The translations under genes were made by a program, and so were the position numbers. Source: Paenibacillaceae bacterium (GTDB taxonomy: Bacteria; Bacillota; Clostridia; Lachnospirales; Lachnospiraceae). Taken from it: DNA of 37,516 bases. Numbering within the stretch: the stretch's first letter is position 1; each line of letters opens with the position of its first letter. The notes beneath the pieces were generated by a model. The model did not search any database and had not been told where the DNA came from. It saw only the letters and a program-made list of their open reading frames with translations. Positions 15,911 through 21,372 of the stretch are shown piece by piece. Location: NCBI GenBank assembly GCA_015057715.1, contig SVDS01000036.1, positions 1 through 37,516 on the forward strand, in the 5' to 3' direction.

Positions 15911-16186
15911 TTAAAATTTGTTCTGGCTGTTGTTACGGCTGGAATCGCGGCTGGAGTCACGGCTGGAATCACGGCTGGAATCACGGCTGGAGTCACGGCT
16001 GCAGTCACGGCTGGAATTACGGCTATAATCCTGCATCTTATCCTGCATTTTGTCCTGCATTTTGTCCTGCATTTTGTCCTGCATCTTGTCCTGTGACTTG
16101 TTCTTATTGTTGTTCTGGCTTGATGTGTAATTCTTTGAAGAATTATTCATATCGTTGTAGCTGTCATTATAATTATTCTTAGACAT
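15911..16186 (-). CDS. Low-complexity tetrapeptide-repeat protein of unknown function
   Basis: I do not recognise a family for this 91-residue protein. The sequence is almost entirely Asn, Ser, Asp, Lys, Gln, Met and Arg. An Asn/Ser/Tyr-rich head (residues 1-~30) leads into five KMQD units. About seven SRD-containing units of the type SSRD follow, with single variants CSRD and YSRN, then a short NNSQNKF tail. There are no hydrophobic segments or Trp, and only one Cys, so it is probably disordered and soluble. ATG 16186 stands seven bases after a perfect AGGAGG; an ATG two codons earlier is too close to that site. A terminator follows the stop. The opposite strand is also open across the repeats, but this strand has the ribosome-binding site and terminator. 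A spore- or stress-related role is possible but unsupported. Confidence 0.72.
   Translation of the reverse strand: MSKNNYNDSYNDMNNSSKNYTSSQNNNKNKSQDKMQDKMQDKMQDKMQDKMQDYSRNSSRDCSRDSSRDSSRDSSRDSSRDSSRNNSQNKF
15937..16104. repeat. Two abutting 12-bp minisatellites, 14 units
   Basis: Eight units like GGCTGGAATCAC fill 15937-16032, and six units like GCATTTTGTCCT fill 16033-16104, all on a strict 12-base period. Units differ by one to a few bases. The period equals four codons, so copy-number changes keep the reading frame of the gene containing them. Confidence 0.92.
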
Positions 16187-16387
16187 TTTCATACCTCCTG
16201 TGGGCGTTTTTTGTTACATGGTGTAGTATGGCGAATATACGGCAGAATATACTTGATTTTTTGTATTGGATAATTCTGAATTTTTTAGAATTGTTTTTAA
16301 AATAACTTTGCATTTTTACATAGCCTATATTATAATTTACTTGAGGAATATTATTCCTCATCCTTATTAATTATTTATACTCCCCTC
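16187..16387. other. AT-rich intergenic region upstream of the repeat-protein gene
   Basis: No convincing gene is present. It should hold the promoter of the minus-strand repeat gene: a TATAAT lies at 16334-16329 on the minus strand, without a clear -35 box. The inverted repeat GAGGAAT-ATT-ATTCCTC at 16343-16359 could be an operator. A 60-codon minus-strand frame here (16179-16361) has no ribosome-binding site or recognisable content. Confidence 0.5.
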
Positions 16388-16425
16388 AGAAACAGCCGAA
16401 TAGCTCCCCTATTACGGCTGTTTCT
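16388..16425. other. Strong hairpin holding the left boundary repeat
   Basis: AGAAACAGCCG (16388-16398) pairs with 16415-16425, and inside it AATAG pairs with CTATT around loop CTCCC, giving a 16-bp stem with one bulged A. The apex coincides with the 14-base repeat at the island boundary. It looks like a terminator used as an integration target. Confidence 0.75.
16400..16413 (+). repeat. Left boundary direct repeat, candidate attL core
   Basis: ATAGCTCCCCTATT recurs exactly at 19652-19665, 3252 bases away. Similarity continues imperfectly for about 40 bases to the right of each copy but not to the left. The two copies bracket the NTPase genes and the integrase remnant. Confidence 0.6.
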
Positions 16426-16512
16426 ATTTGACGTGAAACCTATGTATTTGCTTGCTTGTTGCGTCAAGTTTTTCGAATGTTTGTTCTTTTTGATATCCTT
16501 GCCAAAAATAAC

Positions 16513-16531
16513 AGTATCATTTTAGTATCAC
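16513..16531 (+). repeat. Tandem AGTATCA motif, candidate left arm-type integrase site
   Basis: Two AGTATCA copies at an 11-base period (AGTATCATTTTAGTATCAC) lie about 100 bases inside the left boundary repeat. A nearly identical block lies inside the right end at 19572-19590. Paired direct repeats inside both ends are typical of arm sites for lambda-type integrases. The role is inferred. Confidence 0.45.
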
Positions 16532-16533
16532 AA

Positions 16534-16563
16534 AGGCGGGCCCGGAATGTCGGATACCCGCCT
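16534..16563 (-). terminator. Weak hairpin downstream of the KAP NTPase gene
   Basis: AGGCGGG and CCCGCCT form a 7-bp GC-rich stem with a 16-base loop about 35 bases after the NTPase stop. No proper U-tract follows on the minus strand, so it may be a weak terminator. Confidence 0.4.
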
Positions 16564-16597
16564 ACATATTTATAGTCTAATACTTACTTATATTTTA

Positions 16598-17884
16598 TTA
16601 TACAAACATTTCTATTGTTCTTTCTATATGCTGAGAAAATGTTGTATAATCACAATTTACATTTTTTAACCCAAACGTAGATATCAATTCACTGCCTGCA
16701 CCGTGATTAGCACCCGTTTGAATTCTTTTTAACAGCGTTGATATATTTTCTGATACGAAATATTTATATTCCAGAACATACCAGTTTTTTGGTGCATTAT
16801 CATATGCTATAAAGTCTCTATTTATTATTAAGGAATATACATCTGGAAATTTATATTTAAGTGTAATAAAATATAAATATACTTCCATTACTTTTACAAC
16901 TCTTTTCTCTGGCAAAAAATTAAAATGTGCTTCATAATATAAATAAAATACAGTAAAATTATTAAATATCTTATCTATATCTCTCAATGATAAGTTTAAT
17001 TTAGAAAACATATTAACTACCATTTCACTAAACTCACCTTCATTTGTTATATTTTCAAAATATGGAGTGTACAACGGTTTTATATAATCATACAAATCCC
17101 CTGTTGGTATGCGTATATTAAAGTCAAAAAACCTTCTTAAATATCCTGCTGAATCCATTCCAGCACCGTACATAGTAGAAATAGAATATGATAGTTGTTC
17201 TAAATCAATAGCAAATATAAATACTATATCTTTTTGATTAAAATAGTGTTTAATTATCTCTAAAGTCTCAATAGCAAAAGTAGGCCTACACCTATCTAAT
17301 TCATCAATAAATATAATTAATTTCCCATTTGTAGGTACTAATCCTTTTAACGCTTCTCTAAATTTATCTTTTTCATCAATATAAGTTTTATATTTAGAAA
17401 AAAAATCTTCTATCTTTTTAGTTGCAGCTGCTCCATCTATACCCTTGCATAATATATCTGCTGTGCTTTCTCCTATATACTTTTTAACTCCGTCTTTTAA
17501 AAGCGCTACTCCACATGATTTTAAAAAGTTTGTAGTTATTTTCTCTACAGTGTCAACATAATCATAGTTACTTTTATATACAACTAAATCTTGTAATTTA
17601 TATACTAAAGGAATAAATGCACTATCATTATCATCATTTTCCCAGGCATTATAATATGTAATATAATAATTTTTGTCTGCATTTTCTTCTGATAGTAACC
17701 AATTTTTCCACATATTAATTAAATAGCTTTTTCCAGACCCCCATGATGCATCTAATGATATGACCAGGGAATCATTTTCATGTTTTACATTGTCCCACTT
17801 TTCTATAACATTCATTATATTTTCTACAAATTTTTTTCTATCTAAAGTATCATCATTTTCAAATTTCAAACTAGTATAATCCAC
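16598..17884 (-). CDS. KAP-family P-loop NTPase
   Basis: This 428-residue protein has the marks of the KAP family of STAND-like NTPases. Walker A is DASWGSGKSYL (residues 45-55). A conserved aromatic segment YYNAWEND follows near residue 78. Walker B is KLIIFIDELDRCRPT (188-202), followed by IVFIFAIDLEQLSYSI and an arginine-rich segment GYLRRFFDFNIRIP that probably supplies the arginine finger. Unlike many KAP proteins I see no transmembrane pair inserted between Walker A and B, so it is probably soluble. The last ~150 residues are helical and unassigned. The start is GTG at 17884, nine bases after AGGAGA. The gene is visibly more AT-rich than its flanks, pointing to transfer. KAP ATPases occur in several phage-defence operons such as Qat; defence here is inference from family and island context. 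Confidence 0.87.
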   Translation of the reverse strand: MDYTSLKFENDDTLDRKKFVENIMNVIEKWDNVKHENDSLVISLDASWGSGKSYLINMWKNWLLSEENADKNYYITYYNAWENDDNDSAFIPLVYKLQDLVVYKSNYDYVDTVEKITTNFLKSCGVALLKDGVKKYIGESTADILCKGIDGAAATKKIEDFFSKYKTYIDEKDKFREALKGLVPTNGKLIIFIDELDRCRPTFAIETLEIIKHYFNQKDIVFIFAIDLEQLSYSISTMYGAGMDSAGYLRRFFDFNIRIPTGDLYDYIKPLYTPYFENITNEGEFSEMVVNMFSKLNLSLRDIDKIFNNFTVFYLYYEAHFNFLPEKRVVKVMEVYLYFITLKYKFPDVYSLIINRDFIAYDNAPKNWYVLEYKYFVSENISTLLKRIQTGANHGAGSELISTFGLKNVNCDYTTFSQHIERTIEMFV

Positions 17885-17933
17885 TATTCCGCTCTCCTCC
17901 CCTTTTTCTCACATCATACACCAAAATATTCCA

Positions 17934-17961
17934 AAAGAAAACACCCATCTTTCGACAGGTG
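17934..17961 (-). terminator. Terminator between the two island genes
   Basis: On the minus strand CACCTGTC-GAAA-GATGGGTG forms an 8-bp stem, two pairs being wobbles, with a GNRA tetraloop, followed by TTTTCTTTT. It lies just after the 209-residue gene. The NTPase gene is therefore reached either by read-through or from its own promoter in the ~50 bases before its start. Confidence 0.65.
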
Positions 17962-17993
17962 CATTAATTTAAATGCCTAAGTTAAAACGTGTT

Positions 17994-18623
17994 TTATATT
18001 TCTTTGTAAGTTTCAAGAAATGAGCTTATTATAAATTCAACAAAAATAACATGAAATTCCTCCATTGCCAAGCATTCTTCCTTTGTGTCAATCTCTTCTG
18101 TCTTCCTTACTAAAGACTCATAAAATGAATTATGGCATAGCTCTGATAAAATACTATAAATGCCATACAAAGTTAGTTCCTCTGATTCATTCTTCTTCCG
18201 TTCTTCACCTACTTCTGCGGCCATATCATGTACTGACTTACGTCCTTTTCCGGGGAATCTCCTTGAACCAAAAATTTTAAATTTTTTAACTATATCTGTT
18301 TGTTCAGGAACTTCTTTTTCGCTTGCTCCCAAATAACTTTCAATTAACTCCTCATGTTTCATTAGATACTTATATTCAATCACTTGCTCCATCATATCCC
18401 GGATAATAAAATTTGCATATCTAGGTAAAAAGTCACGATCCCCACTCATTCGATTTAGAAAACTAATTCCTCGTTTTAATTCAGACCAAATAAAGATACT
18501 GATAAATTCTTTTGTTCCTAGCTTCGGAACTCCGTTACATCTTAATAGTATTTCAGCTCTCTTGTTATCAGTGATCTTAAAAACTTCATTCAAATATTCA
18601 TTTTCCAATACATATGTTTTCAT
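17994..18623 (-). CDS. DUF5677-like helical protein of unknown function, KAP partner
   Basis: This 209-residue soluble protein is mostly helical and charged. Two segments resemble the DUF5677 pattern: an Arg-Met-Glu helix followed by a Tyr-Leu helix (RDMMEQVIEYKYLMKHEELI, residues ~75-95), and a later YGIYSILSELCHNSFYE helix with an Ile-Leu-Ser-x-x-x-His pattern (~153-170). A basic stretch RRFPGKGRKS sits between them. The assignment is by eye and could be wrong. HEPN-type RNases are also helical with a conserved His, but the Rx4-6H motif is not present. ATG 18623 has AAGGGGGTG upstream. It precedes the KAP gene on the same strand, so it is the likely partner. Its AT content is like the NTPase gene and unlike the flanks. 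Confidence 0.6.
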   Translation of the reverse strand: MKTYVLENEYLNEVFKITDNKRAEILLRCNGVPKLGTKEFISIFIWSELKRGISFLNRMSGDRDFLPRYANFIIRDMMEQVIEYKYLMKHEELIESYLGASEKEVPEQTDIVKKFKIFGSRRFPGKGRKSVHDMAAEVGEERKKNESEELTLYGIYSILSELCHNSFYESLVRKTEEIDTKEECLAMEEFHVIFVEFIISSFLETYKEI

Positions 18624-18755
18624 AAGTACACCCCCTTTGGTAATTTATCATAATTATACACCTTGTTTTCCCAAAACAAAAGACCCCCACCAAAAAACAA
18701 CATTTATTTTAAATAATTGTAAATATAAATATAAATAGAAATAACGCTCTTAGGC
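18624..18755. other. AT-rich intergenic region upstream of the island genes
   Basis: This stretch should contain the promoter of the minus-strand 209-residue gene. It is rich in A/T runs and holds a short inverted repeat TTGTTTTCCCAAAACAA at 18663-18679. I see no gene in it. Confidence 0.4.
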
Positions 18756-19049
18756 TATACTCACTCAACTTTGGGCTTTCTTAAGCTGTTGCGACCGTCG
18801 CAACTCTTCAAGCCACCGTTTATGCTATTCCATCCGCTCCGTCAGTTCTTCCCTTACAATGACCGCCCTTTCCGTGGAACTGGTCCAGGTTCTATTAAAC
18901 CGATTCACACCATTCCCAACAAGGCCCATACTGTAAATACGATCTTCTTCCGGTAAGAACTGCCTTAACCTTTTTGAGTTCTTGGGCTTCCGCAGCTCCC
19001 TCATGGCCTGGGCTTCATCTTGACGGATAACGAGAAGACTTTGATACAT
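18756..19049 (-). pseudogene. Decayed small gene with in-frame TAG, unknown family
   Basis: A 74-codon frame from ATG 19049 ends in a TAG ahead of 18825. The same frame then continues for about 19 further codons (HKRWLEELRRSQQLKKAQS) before another stop. The product is charged and helical, with a plausible protein-like segment SMGLVGNGVNRFNRTW. I do not recognise the family. Continuation past the TAG with the same composition suggests a nonsense mutation in a former ~95-residue protein. It occupies the place where the N-terminal half of the adjoining integrase should be, so a rearrangement has probably joined two remnants. Confidence 0.4.
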
Positions 19050-19584
19050 TCATAAAACACGTTAAAAAGTACAGTGTAAAGTAGCCTTTACAGTTCTATA
19101 TTATACAGGGATACGCTGTGGTGAACTCCTGGCGCTAAATAGAAATGATATTGACCTCGAAGCAGCCACACTGTCTATTACAAAGACATATAACCGCACA
19201 GGACGCAGGGATGTTATTACTTCACCCAAGACTGCTAACAGTGTTCGTACTGTTACCTTACCCCCTTTCTTGGTGGATTGTTTTACAGATTATATTAATC
19301 GTATCTATGGCATGGAATCAGATGACAGGCTTTTCCCTTTTACCCGGCGTACCTTGGAATCTTCTATGAGAAATGCTTGCTTTGCTTCTGGTATAAAAAG
19401 GATACGTATACACGACATCCGTCACAGTCATGTATCACTACTCATTGAGATGGACTTCCCTCCTTTGCTTATTGCTGAAAGAATAGGTGACTCTGTGGAT
19501 ATGGTTAATAACATATACGGTCACTTATACCCAAACAGACATAAGGAAGTTGCAGAGAAATTACAGAATATAGTATCAAATTAG
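19043..19584 (+). pseudogene. Tyrosine integrase remnant, C-terminal catalytic half, frameshifted
   Basis: Two plus-strand frames together read as the catalytic domain of a phage/ICE-type tyrosine recombinase. A short stretch TFIKHVKKYSVK (from 19043) runs into a stop. One base of shift at about 19079-19083 then gives VAFTVLYYTGIRCGELLAL and continues to 19584. Catalytic landmarks are the first Arg (TGIRCGE), a Lys in SPKTANSVRTV, the HxxR box (HDIRHSH) and the nucleophile Tyr in NNIYGHLYP. The usual second His/Trp box reads IGDSVD here. The arm-binding and core-binding N-terminal domains are missing, so the enzyme should be inactive. Its 3' end lies 67 bases from the right boundary repeat, as expected of an integrase beside its attachment site. 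Confidence 0.83.
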
Positions 19585-19590
19585 TATCAC
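19572..19590 (+). repeat. Tandem AGTATCA motif, candidate right arm-type integrase site
   Basis: AGTATCAAATTAGTATCAC overlaps the integrase stop codon and differs from the left copy (16513-16531) at two positions. It has the same 11-base period and the same orientation. Confidence 0.45.
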
Positions 19591-19603
19591 GACACAAAGT
19601 TAG

Positions 19604-19647
19604 AGCCGAGAAATGCTGATAAATTAGTACTTTCCCGGCTTTCTTTA
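19604..19647 (+). terminator. Probable terminator of the integrase gene
   Basis: AGCCGAGAAA (19604-19613) pairs with TTTCCCGGCT (19632-19641), with one A-C mismatch, and is followed by TTCTTT. Confidence 0.5.
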
Positions 19648-19651
19648 AAGA

Positions 19652-19665
19652 TAGCTCCCCTATTC
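19652..19665 (+). repeat. Right boundary direct repeat, candidate attR core
   Basis: This is an exact copy of the 14-base repeat at 16400-16413. To its right, GGCTGTTTCT at 19668-19677 could pair with AGAAACAGCC left of the other copy (16388-16397), which would restore a hairpin in the empty site. Confidence 0.6.
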
Positions 19666-19815: not shown

Positions 19816-20547
19816 TTAATCGCCAATCACGTTGACAATCTTTACAGGTGTCCGATAATTCCACGGAGATGTCTTAATACCTGTACTGTAAGTTGAGGAA
19901 TGTACTACTTCTCCATTCCCGATATACATGGCAACATGATTGATGGAGCTTCCGCTTCCATAAAAAATCAGGTCGCCTGGGCGCATCTGATCTGCGCTCA
20001 CAGATCTTCCCTGTGTAGCCTGTCCACCTGATGAACGGCTGATGGAGAGTCCTGCTGCATGCTGCATTACATATCTTGTAAATCCGGAGCAATCCACTCC
20101 TGTATGAGGATCACTGCCACCGTAGGAATAACGACCGCCTACGAACTGCAGTGCATAAGTAACAATGCTTTGTCTGAAATTAACGGTTGACTGAGCCTGA
20201 GCCTTCTCTTCCAGTGCTTTTAAAGTTTCTTCATCGGTTGCAGTTACAGTGGCACTTCCTTCTACCGGCAAATAGCCATATGTATCGTTCACCTTAACTT
20301 TTAAAAATCCATCCCCCATATCTTCCACAACTTCAAAGGCGGATCCTTTGGAAGCGTTCATTAAGGGTTCTGTACCTTCTTCATCTTTACTGATTGTAAC
20401 CTGATCTGTATTTACGGTTACCATGTAATTACCAAAACTTAATCCTGGACCGGATACCTCATCTGCTCTTACATCTGAAGGAACTGCAATAATCATTGTT
20501 CCACAAAAAGCCATAAGTCCTAACGTTTTCCATATTTTGTTTATCAT
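19816..20547 (-). CDS. Secreted SH3-NlpC/P60 cell-wall hydrolase
   Basis: This exported protein of 243 residues probably cleaves peptidoglycan stem peptides (D-glutamyl-diaminopimelate type). I chose ATG 20547 because AGGAG lies upstream and a signal peptide follows (MINKIWKTLGLMAFCGTMII, cleavage near VRADE). A longer frame from 20625 adds 26 residues without a ribosome-binding site. A bacterial SH3-like domain covers ~residues 35-105. The NlpC/P60 domain then shows GVDCSGFTRYV with the catalytic Cys, INHVAMYIGNG with the His, and VVHSST as the third polar residue. A paralogue with the same layout is encoded just upstream on the same strand. Confidence 0.92.
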   Translation of the reverse strand: MINKIWKTLGLMAFCGTMIIAVPSDVRADEVSGPGLSFGNYMVTVNTDQVTISKDEEGTEPLMNASKGSAFEVVEDMGDGFLKVKVNDTYGYLPVEGSATVTATDEETLKALEEKAQAQSTVNFRQSIVTYALQFVGGRYSYGGSDPHTGVDCSGFTRYVMQHAAGLSISRSSGGQATQGRSVSADQMRPGDLIFYGSGSSINHVAMYIGNGEVVHSSTYSTGIKTSPWNYRTPVKIVNVIGD

Positions 20548-20679
20548 CGGGAAATCTGCTCCTATTTTTACTTTTTGAGTTTCAAATGTTACGTAATTAT
20601 TAATTTCATTACGGTTATTATACATTTATTTTATCTTTTCGTCAAGTATTATTTAAAACTGCACGAAATTAAAATTATA

Positions 20680-21372
20680 TTAGTTTAAAACACTGACAAA
20701 TTTCACAGGTTTGCGATACATGACGTTTGTTACGATAATTCCTGTTTTTTCGGTGGATGCATGAACTACTTTACCATCTCCCATATACAAAGCGACATGA
20801 TTTATGGATCCGTTTTTTCCATAAAATACCAGATCACCAGGACGGGCCTGATCATAACTTATGATTTTTCCTTCCCCTGACTGTGACCTTGCACTGTGAT
20901 CCAGCTCAACATCTGCGGTCTTTTTAAGGACATATCTGGTAAAACCGGAACAGTCCACTCCTGTGCTGGGATTTACACCACCATATACGTAACGTCCTCC
21001 AACGAATTGAAGAGCATAGTCCACAACTTCTTTCCGCTCCAGCGCAGACTCGTCCACTTTTTCCTGAGTTTTTTCGATCAGTGTTGCAGAATCACTCCGT
21101 ATGTAACCGTCGCCTTCCGGAACTTTCACCTTCAGCCAGCCATCCTTGGCAGGCTCAATCACCTCACATGTCTGGCCTTCCAAAGCAGAAGTCACAACTG
21201 AACCTCCATCCTCCGCAGTGGTTCTGACTGATACAGGCTTGTCCAATCTGGCATAAAGAGTTGTACTGGTTTCTACTGTGATTTCATCCGCTTTCGCCTC
21301 TGTCTGATCGCTTAAACTTAAGGTAGCTAAAAGTCCTAAAAGTCCCATGACCTTCCACATTCTGATTTTCAT
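20680..21372 (-). CDS. Secreted SH3-NlpC/P60 cell-wall hydrolase (paralogue)
   Basis: This 230-residue protein has a signal peptide (residues 1-~27, ending near AKADE), an SH3-like domain with KDGWLKVKVPEGDGYI, and an NlpC/P60 domain. Catalytic landmarks are GVDCSGFTRYVLKK (Cys), INHVALYMGDG (His) and VVHAST. AGGAGAT is placed before ATG 21372. The layout and block motifs closely match the product of 19816-20547, so the pair arose by tandem duplication. The 130-base gap between the two genes is AT-rich and may hold a promoter for the second copy. Confidence 0.92.
   Translation of the reverse strand: MKIRMWKVMGLLGLLATLSLSDQTEAKADEITVETSTTLYARLDKPVSVRTTAEDGGSVVTSALEGQTCEVIEPAKDGWLKVKVPEGDGYIRSDSATLIEKTQEKVDESALERKEVVDYALQFVGGRYVYGGVNPSTGVDCSGFTRYVLKKTADVELDHSARSQSGEGKIISYDQARPGDLVFYGKNGSINHVALYMGDGKVVHASTEKTGIIVTNVMYRKPVKFVSVLN

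Follow-up and report, generated by a model that had tools for sequence, protein, structure and literature searches.

The DNA analysed here is a stretch of 37,516 nucleotides from a Paenibacillaceae bacterium (SVDS01000036.1, contig C10 of a 5.4-Mb genome), referred to below as the window. It carries a small island, 16400..19665, with two intact genes, one for a KAP-family ATPase and the other for a helical protein of 209 residues. Our analysis indicates that the island probably represents the remains of a phage-like integrative element, in which the KAP gene is stand-alone cargo of defence type and the gene for the 209-residue protein is a separate passenger. The two intact neighbours do not seem to make up a new defence system of two genes, and the KAP protein, as judged by its profile matches, is a further member of the already known candidate class PDC-S20 (PDC stands for phage defence candidate in PMC11514479) and not a new type of system. 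Genomes, loci and contigs are numbered below with the prefixes G, L and C, G000 being the window's own genome.

A preliminary description of the window had placed an AT-rich insert between 14-bp direct repeats, holding a dead integrase, a decayed small gene, an intact gene for a soluble KAP NTPase and a second intact gene, and had proposed the two intact genes as a defence pair. The repeats, both decayed genes and the intact NTPase, predicted to be soluble, are borne out by the results that follow, whereas the pairing is not. The AT-rich character holds for the KAP gene (26.5% G+C) and the gene for the 209-residue protein (31.9%) but not for the integrase part (39.8%) or the part that proved to derive from a sigma factor (48.2%), the window as a whole having 41.1%.

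The island and its relative element

The island lies between two exact copies of a 14-bp core, ATAGCTCCCCTATT, at 16400..16413 and 19651..19664 (neither with a strand), spaced 3251 bp start-to-start. Both flanks of the site, a gene for a Ser/Asp-rich protein on one side and an NlpC/P60 gene on the other, are present in all 25 genomes of the genus, the window's own included. Chance was rejected as the origin of the repeats because the core is single-copy at the site in 21 of the 24 other genomes (15 exact and 6 with one mismatch in the loci read); it was not found within two mismatches at the loci of G009, G012 and G013. No KAP or 209-residue-type gene is present at this site in any of the 24, G005 has a clean empty site, and the four genomes among them with a KAP match (G004, G014, G016 and G017) have it away from the site. 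When six relatives were aligned with the two ends from the window, all six matched the window's left flank to the left of the core.

The left copy of the core sits in the loop of a strong terminator-like hairpin at 16388..16425 (no strand; -21.1 kcal/mol, z -5.70, none of 200 shuffles as good), identified by folding and by matching sequence in the six relatives, and the integration site therefore looks like a terminator. No tRNA gene was found in the window. A tyrosine integrase would have placed the element into the loop of this hairpin, which is whole at the left junction because the end of the element itself would supply the other arm.

Two decayed genes link the island to a longer element in G017 (contig C15). 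The tyrosine integrase is represented by a C-terminal remnant at 19069..19584 (+; Phage_integrase 1.2e-6), equivalent to residues 186-356 of the full 356-residue integrase of G017 and 65% identical to that part of it. The decayed small gene, on the other strand at 18774..19049 (-), is the C-terminal part of a phage-type sigma-70 factor, recognised by comparison with the full sigma gene of G017 (93% nucleotide identity over 244 nt; 88% amino acid identity, one stop inside); the short open frame 18825-19049 (-) belongs to it. Since both remnants match genes of G017, we infer that the island is related to a G017-type element and has undergone an internal deletion, which would have taken the repressor and the replication genes together with the front parts of the integrase and sigma genes. 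Sigma genes of this kind (E 1e-40 or better) are present in 5 of the 25 genus genomes, counting the remnant, and no KAP gene was found in the regions read near those of G001, G009 and G010.

Repeats of 19 bp, some 13.4 kb from each other, mark the ends of the G017 element. Its genes encode, in order, the integrase, transcriptional regulators, a replisome organiser, a RiboL-PSP-HEPN protein, an FRG protein, the sigma factor and KAP, after which comes chromosomal trmB (assigned by our own reading). Its KAP protein is 75% identical to that of the window, the DNA being 81% identical. A PHROGs search of 14 of its 15 listed open reading frames (ORFs) of at least 80 residues (the skipped ORF spans two stretches) recognised the integrase, regulators, replisome organiser and sigma factor and found no head, tail or packaging family. 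With an integrase, a regulator, a replication gene and no virion gene recognised, the element has the gene content of a phage satellite like the phage-inducible chromosomal islands (PICIs). Inside it, at L010:2912-4479, the RiboL-PSP-HEPN gene is followed by the FRG-domain gene (PADLOC PDC-S15), and these two genes are a candidate for another defence pair.

More than one integration may have occurred at the site, because G018 and G020 carry stretches that resemble the left end of the island (134 bp in G018 and a second piece of 43 bp in G020). Matches of 64-71 bp to the left end in G017, G003, G004 and G019 may be only the site itself; a remnant of an element at the G017 site had been considered, and this reading was weakened by the similar short matches of 64-66 bp in the other three, leaving G018 and G020. 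In G023 this integration region holds about 2.2 kb (L109, G023:C1:3680200-3682700) with a 454-residue ORF that we read as reverse-transcriptase/maturase-type. Repeats of AGTATCA type are paired near both ends of the island (16513-16531 and 19572-19590), and the G017 element has similar TGATACTA repeats close to each of its ends. These paired repeats are possibly integrase arm sites, a reading tempered by a repeat-like stretch behind the KAP gene inside the viral contig L056. Directly outside the island is an ORF for 93 residues, rich in Ser/Asp and Gln/Met (15911-16192, with 12-bp tandem repeats at 16017-16117), and the right flank, 19816-21372, holds two tandem NlpC/P60-type genes, the first recognised by Pfam and the second by our reading.

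The KAP ATPase

The KAP gene, 16598..17884 (-), encodes a P-loop NTPase of 428 residues that matches KAP_NTPase (PF07693) over profile positions 1-292 of 293 (6.8e-37; 127.7 bits against a cut-off of 20). The P-loop (GSGKS) and an acidic DELD stretch are motifs of the KAP family, and the window protein has WGSGKS at residues 48-53, where S50 differs in L057, and FIDELDRC at 192-199, identical in all four proteins compared. No membrane segment is predicted by hydropathy, a simple scale and no topology predictor (19-residue maximum 1.27). PDC-S20 is the top PADLOC match of the window protein (2.4e-74) and of the other four KAP proteins scanned (G017, L055, L056 and L057). The S in this name marks a single-gene class, and the KAP homologues occur as single genes with differing neighbours.

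These neighbours were read in several settings. A KAP match is present in 34 of 397 genomes of the family sample, the window's own included. Relatives in viral contigs are 78% (L056), 54% (L055) and 31% (L057 and L058) identical, and 101 plasmid records and 5 records of the phage collection (one of them a Salmonella contig) match, all below 60% identity. The order in L056 is sigma gene, DUF6602 gene, XRE-type gene (our reading) and KAP, then head-tail and tail genes; in L055 the neighbour of KAP is a GIY-YIG gene, and in one of the three phage-collection records opened a ToxN/AbiQ gene lies one small gene away from KAP. Ten neighbour genes from seven KAP loci were scanned, giving two N6-methylases with type I features, one ADP-ribosyltransferase-type, one GTPase-type and one DUF3846 gene, two genes with sub-threshold nuclease-type matches and three without a meaningful match. 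At L045:5881-8869 (G348) two different KAP genes stand adjacent beside type I restriction genes, and at L050:5593-7981 (G016) an ADP-ribosyltransferase-type gene, a small gene with a borderline NOV_C match and, directly after, a KAP gene lie on one strand.

Ratios of nonsynonymous to synonymous substitution (dN/dS) of 0.175 to G017, 0.155 to L056 and 0.222 to L055 show a KAP family under purifying selection. The predicted fold of the window protein (mean predicted local distance difference test score, pLDDT, 71.1) has as its top solved match RdrA of the RADAR defence system (E 2.1e-6); a search of solved structures by sequence gave nothing useful for either KAP or the 209-residue protein. Downstream of the gene, a hairpin at 16535..16562 (-) has a sequence conserved behind KAP in G017 and L056 (alignment of three), with z -2.27 in the window (6 of 200 shuffles as good) and z -3.03 in G017 (1 of 200). 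It is a possible KAP terminator, and it was not listed by the terminator scan.

Through the decay of the element, KAP would have been kept as an independent cargo unit. Its product would be a soluble AAA/STAND-like ATPase which, on infection, assembles or is switched on, and phage replication is then stopped or the cell killed. Going by its family, it would most likely let a prophage or satellite exclude competing phages.

The 209-residue protein and the competing explanations

The 209-residue protein (17994..18623, -) is, by profile search, structure model and relatives, a rare orphan with a weak relation to DUF5677 and a HEPN-like predicted fold. The preliminary label 'DUF5677-like' stands as a weak relation, but not as membership: the match to the DUF5677 profile (PF18928) covers 49 residues and scores 21.5 bits (2.6e-4) against a gathering cut-off of 27.1, and two relatives have no Pfam match at E 0.1. 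A Foldseek search with the model returned nothing under E 1. HEPN ribonucleases typically have a conserved Rx4-6H motif, and no stretch of R or K, four to six residues and H is common to the three family members. The two true relatives, of 204 and 217 residues, are in G196 (same family) and G019, and a genome-contig search gave two loci with these same genes. The G019 gene (29% identity, on a different contig from the site) is the match in one other genome of the genus. Among 391 genomes of the class the sole match was the window's own genome; phages and plasmids gave no tblastn match at 1e-5, and no relative was found in the viral contigs. Two further candidates fell away, L004 in G379 (E 4.5e-4; 2.6e-5), a spurious match in another frame inside a 544-residue ORF, and the RiboL-PSP-HEPN protein of G017 (E 22).

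If the two genes were a true two-gene system, the kind of pair proposed in the preliminary description, the ATPase would sense infection and switch on the HEPN-like effector. The genes are adjacent on one strand and both intact despite the decay of the mobility genes, the model of the smaller protein resembles HEPN proteins, and defence ATPases often act with an effector. Co-occurrence was counted by tblastn at E 0.001 over 124 loci, many of them short, overlapping or repeating one gene: KAP matched in 57, the 209-residue protein in 12 and both in five (L001, L005, L012, L117 and L118), all five from the window's own genome. Neither true relative of the 209-residue protein adjoins KAP, and blastp found no gene like it in the wider KAP neighbourhoods of 10 family-sample genomes and of the viral loci L057 and L058. 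The preliminary description had itself named rarity of the adjacency elsewhere as telling against a pair, and no second case was found. Over 37 genomes (the window's own and 36 with a KAP match) the DUF5677 profile gave one match, on contig C64 of G179, whose KAP is on C23; this is a weak test because the window's own gene escapes the profile (G000 gave 0 matches). The gap of 109 bp between the two genes holds an intrinsic-terminator-like hairpin with a T-rich tail at 17941..17962 (-; z -3.88, 0 of 200 shuffles as good), and its sequence is also found upstream of KAP in G017 (11 of 200), where the 209-residue protein has no match. The island's 25 promoter-like sites (17.1 expected, sd 4.2) do not enter into this assessment. 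With this shared hairpin between the genes, joint loci from one genome only and no conserved Rx4-6H motif, we consider a two-gene system very unlikely. We give even less credence to the idea that an undescribed and very rare HEPN-like effector family on mobile elements has, in this lineage, been recruited beside a PDC-S20 KAP as a new sensor-effector pair. The intactness of both genes had also been taken as a sign of selection on them; selection in this strain cannot be read from it, the low dN/dS concerns the KAP family, and no close homologue of the 209-residue gene that would allow a selection test was found.

An explanation in which KAP protects alone and the 209-residue gene is carried along, decayed or neutral and without remaining function, would suit an orphan found in 1 of 391 class genomes. 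We hold it to be doubtful, since the frame is open, its length is like that of its relatives and residues are conserved across relatives that are only 22-32% identical, features which argue for a family under constraint. Under the explanation that we prefer, the HEPN-like gene probably occupies a variable cargo slot as a passenger of its own, acting as a stand-alone toxin or defence gene, and such a slot fits the RiboL-PSP-HEPN and FRG (PDC-S15) genes of G017. KAP could also serve the element itself, in replication, superinfection immunity or partition, and not the defence of the host: its neighbour in the G017 element is the sigma gene, and in L056 a sigma gene is nearby and structural genes follow. 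Related KAP genes, however, are also found on plasmids, with type I restriction genes, with an ADP-ribosyltransferase-type gene and not far from a ToxN/AbiQ gene, and PifA acts against phages. The KAP member Tmn does so as well (PMC11846954), and we regard a role confined to the element as unlikely.

Several points weigh against the preferred explanation of a decayed phage-like element with stand-alone defence cargo. KAP proteins vary widely and may in part serve other roles, the group to which the window protein belongs is a candidate for defence by its sequence relations, and no literature naming PDC-S20 was found. The RdrA match has template modelling (TM) scores below 0.4 and comes from a middling model, and the HEPN resemblance likewise comes from a middling one (mean pLDDT 67.0). 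The hairpin between the genes is moderate evidence, because the island has 2 terminator-like sites against a mean of 1.2 in shuffles and because the strong z in the window falls to -1.97 in G017; in L056 the hairpin is absent. The sequence downstream of KAP, at the element end in G017 and in the window, is also found behind KAP inside L056, a recurrence for which the simple picture has no explanation. The two bases that follow the core on its right differ among the empty sites: those of the window's right end stand in G003, G004, G018 and G019, and those of its left end in G005 and G017. The identities to G017 DNA, 81% for KAP and 93% for the sigma remnant, make the element a mosaic.

The island is an example of a mobile element stripped to its cargo, and it cautions that two intact neighbours in a decayed island need not be a system. 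Comparison with one relative element told apart cargo units that look paired by sequence alone. With it, a group of KAP ATPases found on viral contigs and on a satellite-like element of Lachnospiraceae-type bacteria joins the candidate single-gene defences.

Comparison with known systems

Among named classes the KAP protein is most like PDC-S20, its best PADLOC match, the class itself being a prediction. PifA is an exclusion protein of the F plasmid that acts against phages. The PADLOC PifA model matches the NTPase core of the window protein (7.3e-17), but the match joins KAP residues 35-265 to model positions 36-259 of 720, and the window protein is far shorter. Qat, which like RADAR has a role in defence, is a four-gene system. 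QatA shares the KAP P-loop core with the window protein, but its score of 57.6 bits is far below the curated cut-off of 600 and the island has no further intact gene, and Qat was rejected. Tmn, which PMC13273231 also covers, is like the window protein a KAP-family NTPase and inhibits phages (PMC11846954). It has two transmembrane domains, whereas the window protein has none by hydropathy; identity with Tmn was rejected on this ground, and no Tmn-named model is among the PADLOC matches of the window protein. The G017 element differs from the island in being undeleted, in having its attachment site beside trmB and in giving no match to the 209-residue protein, but it has the same type of integrase, the sigma gene and, as in the window, KAP at the end of the element.

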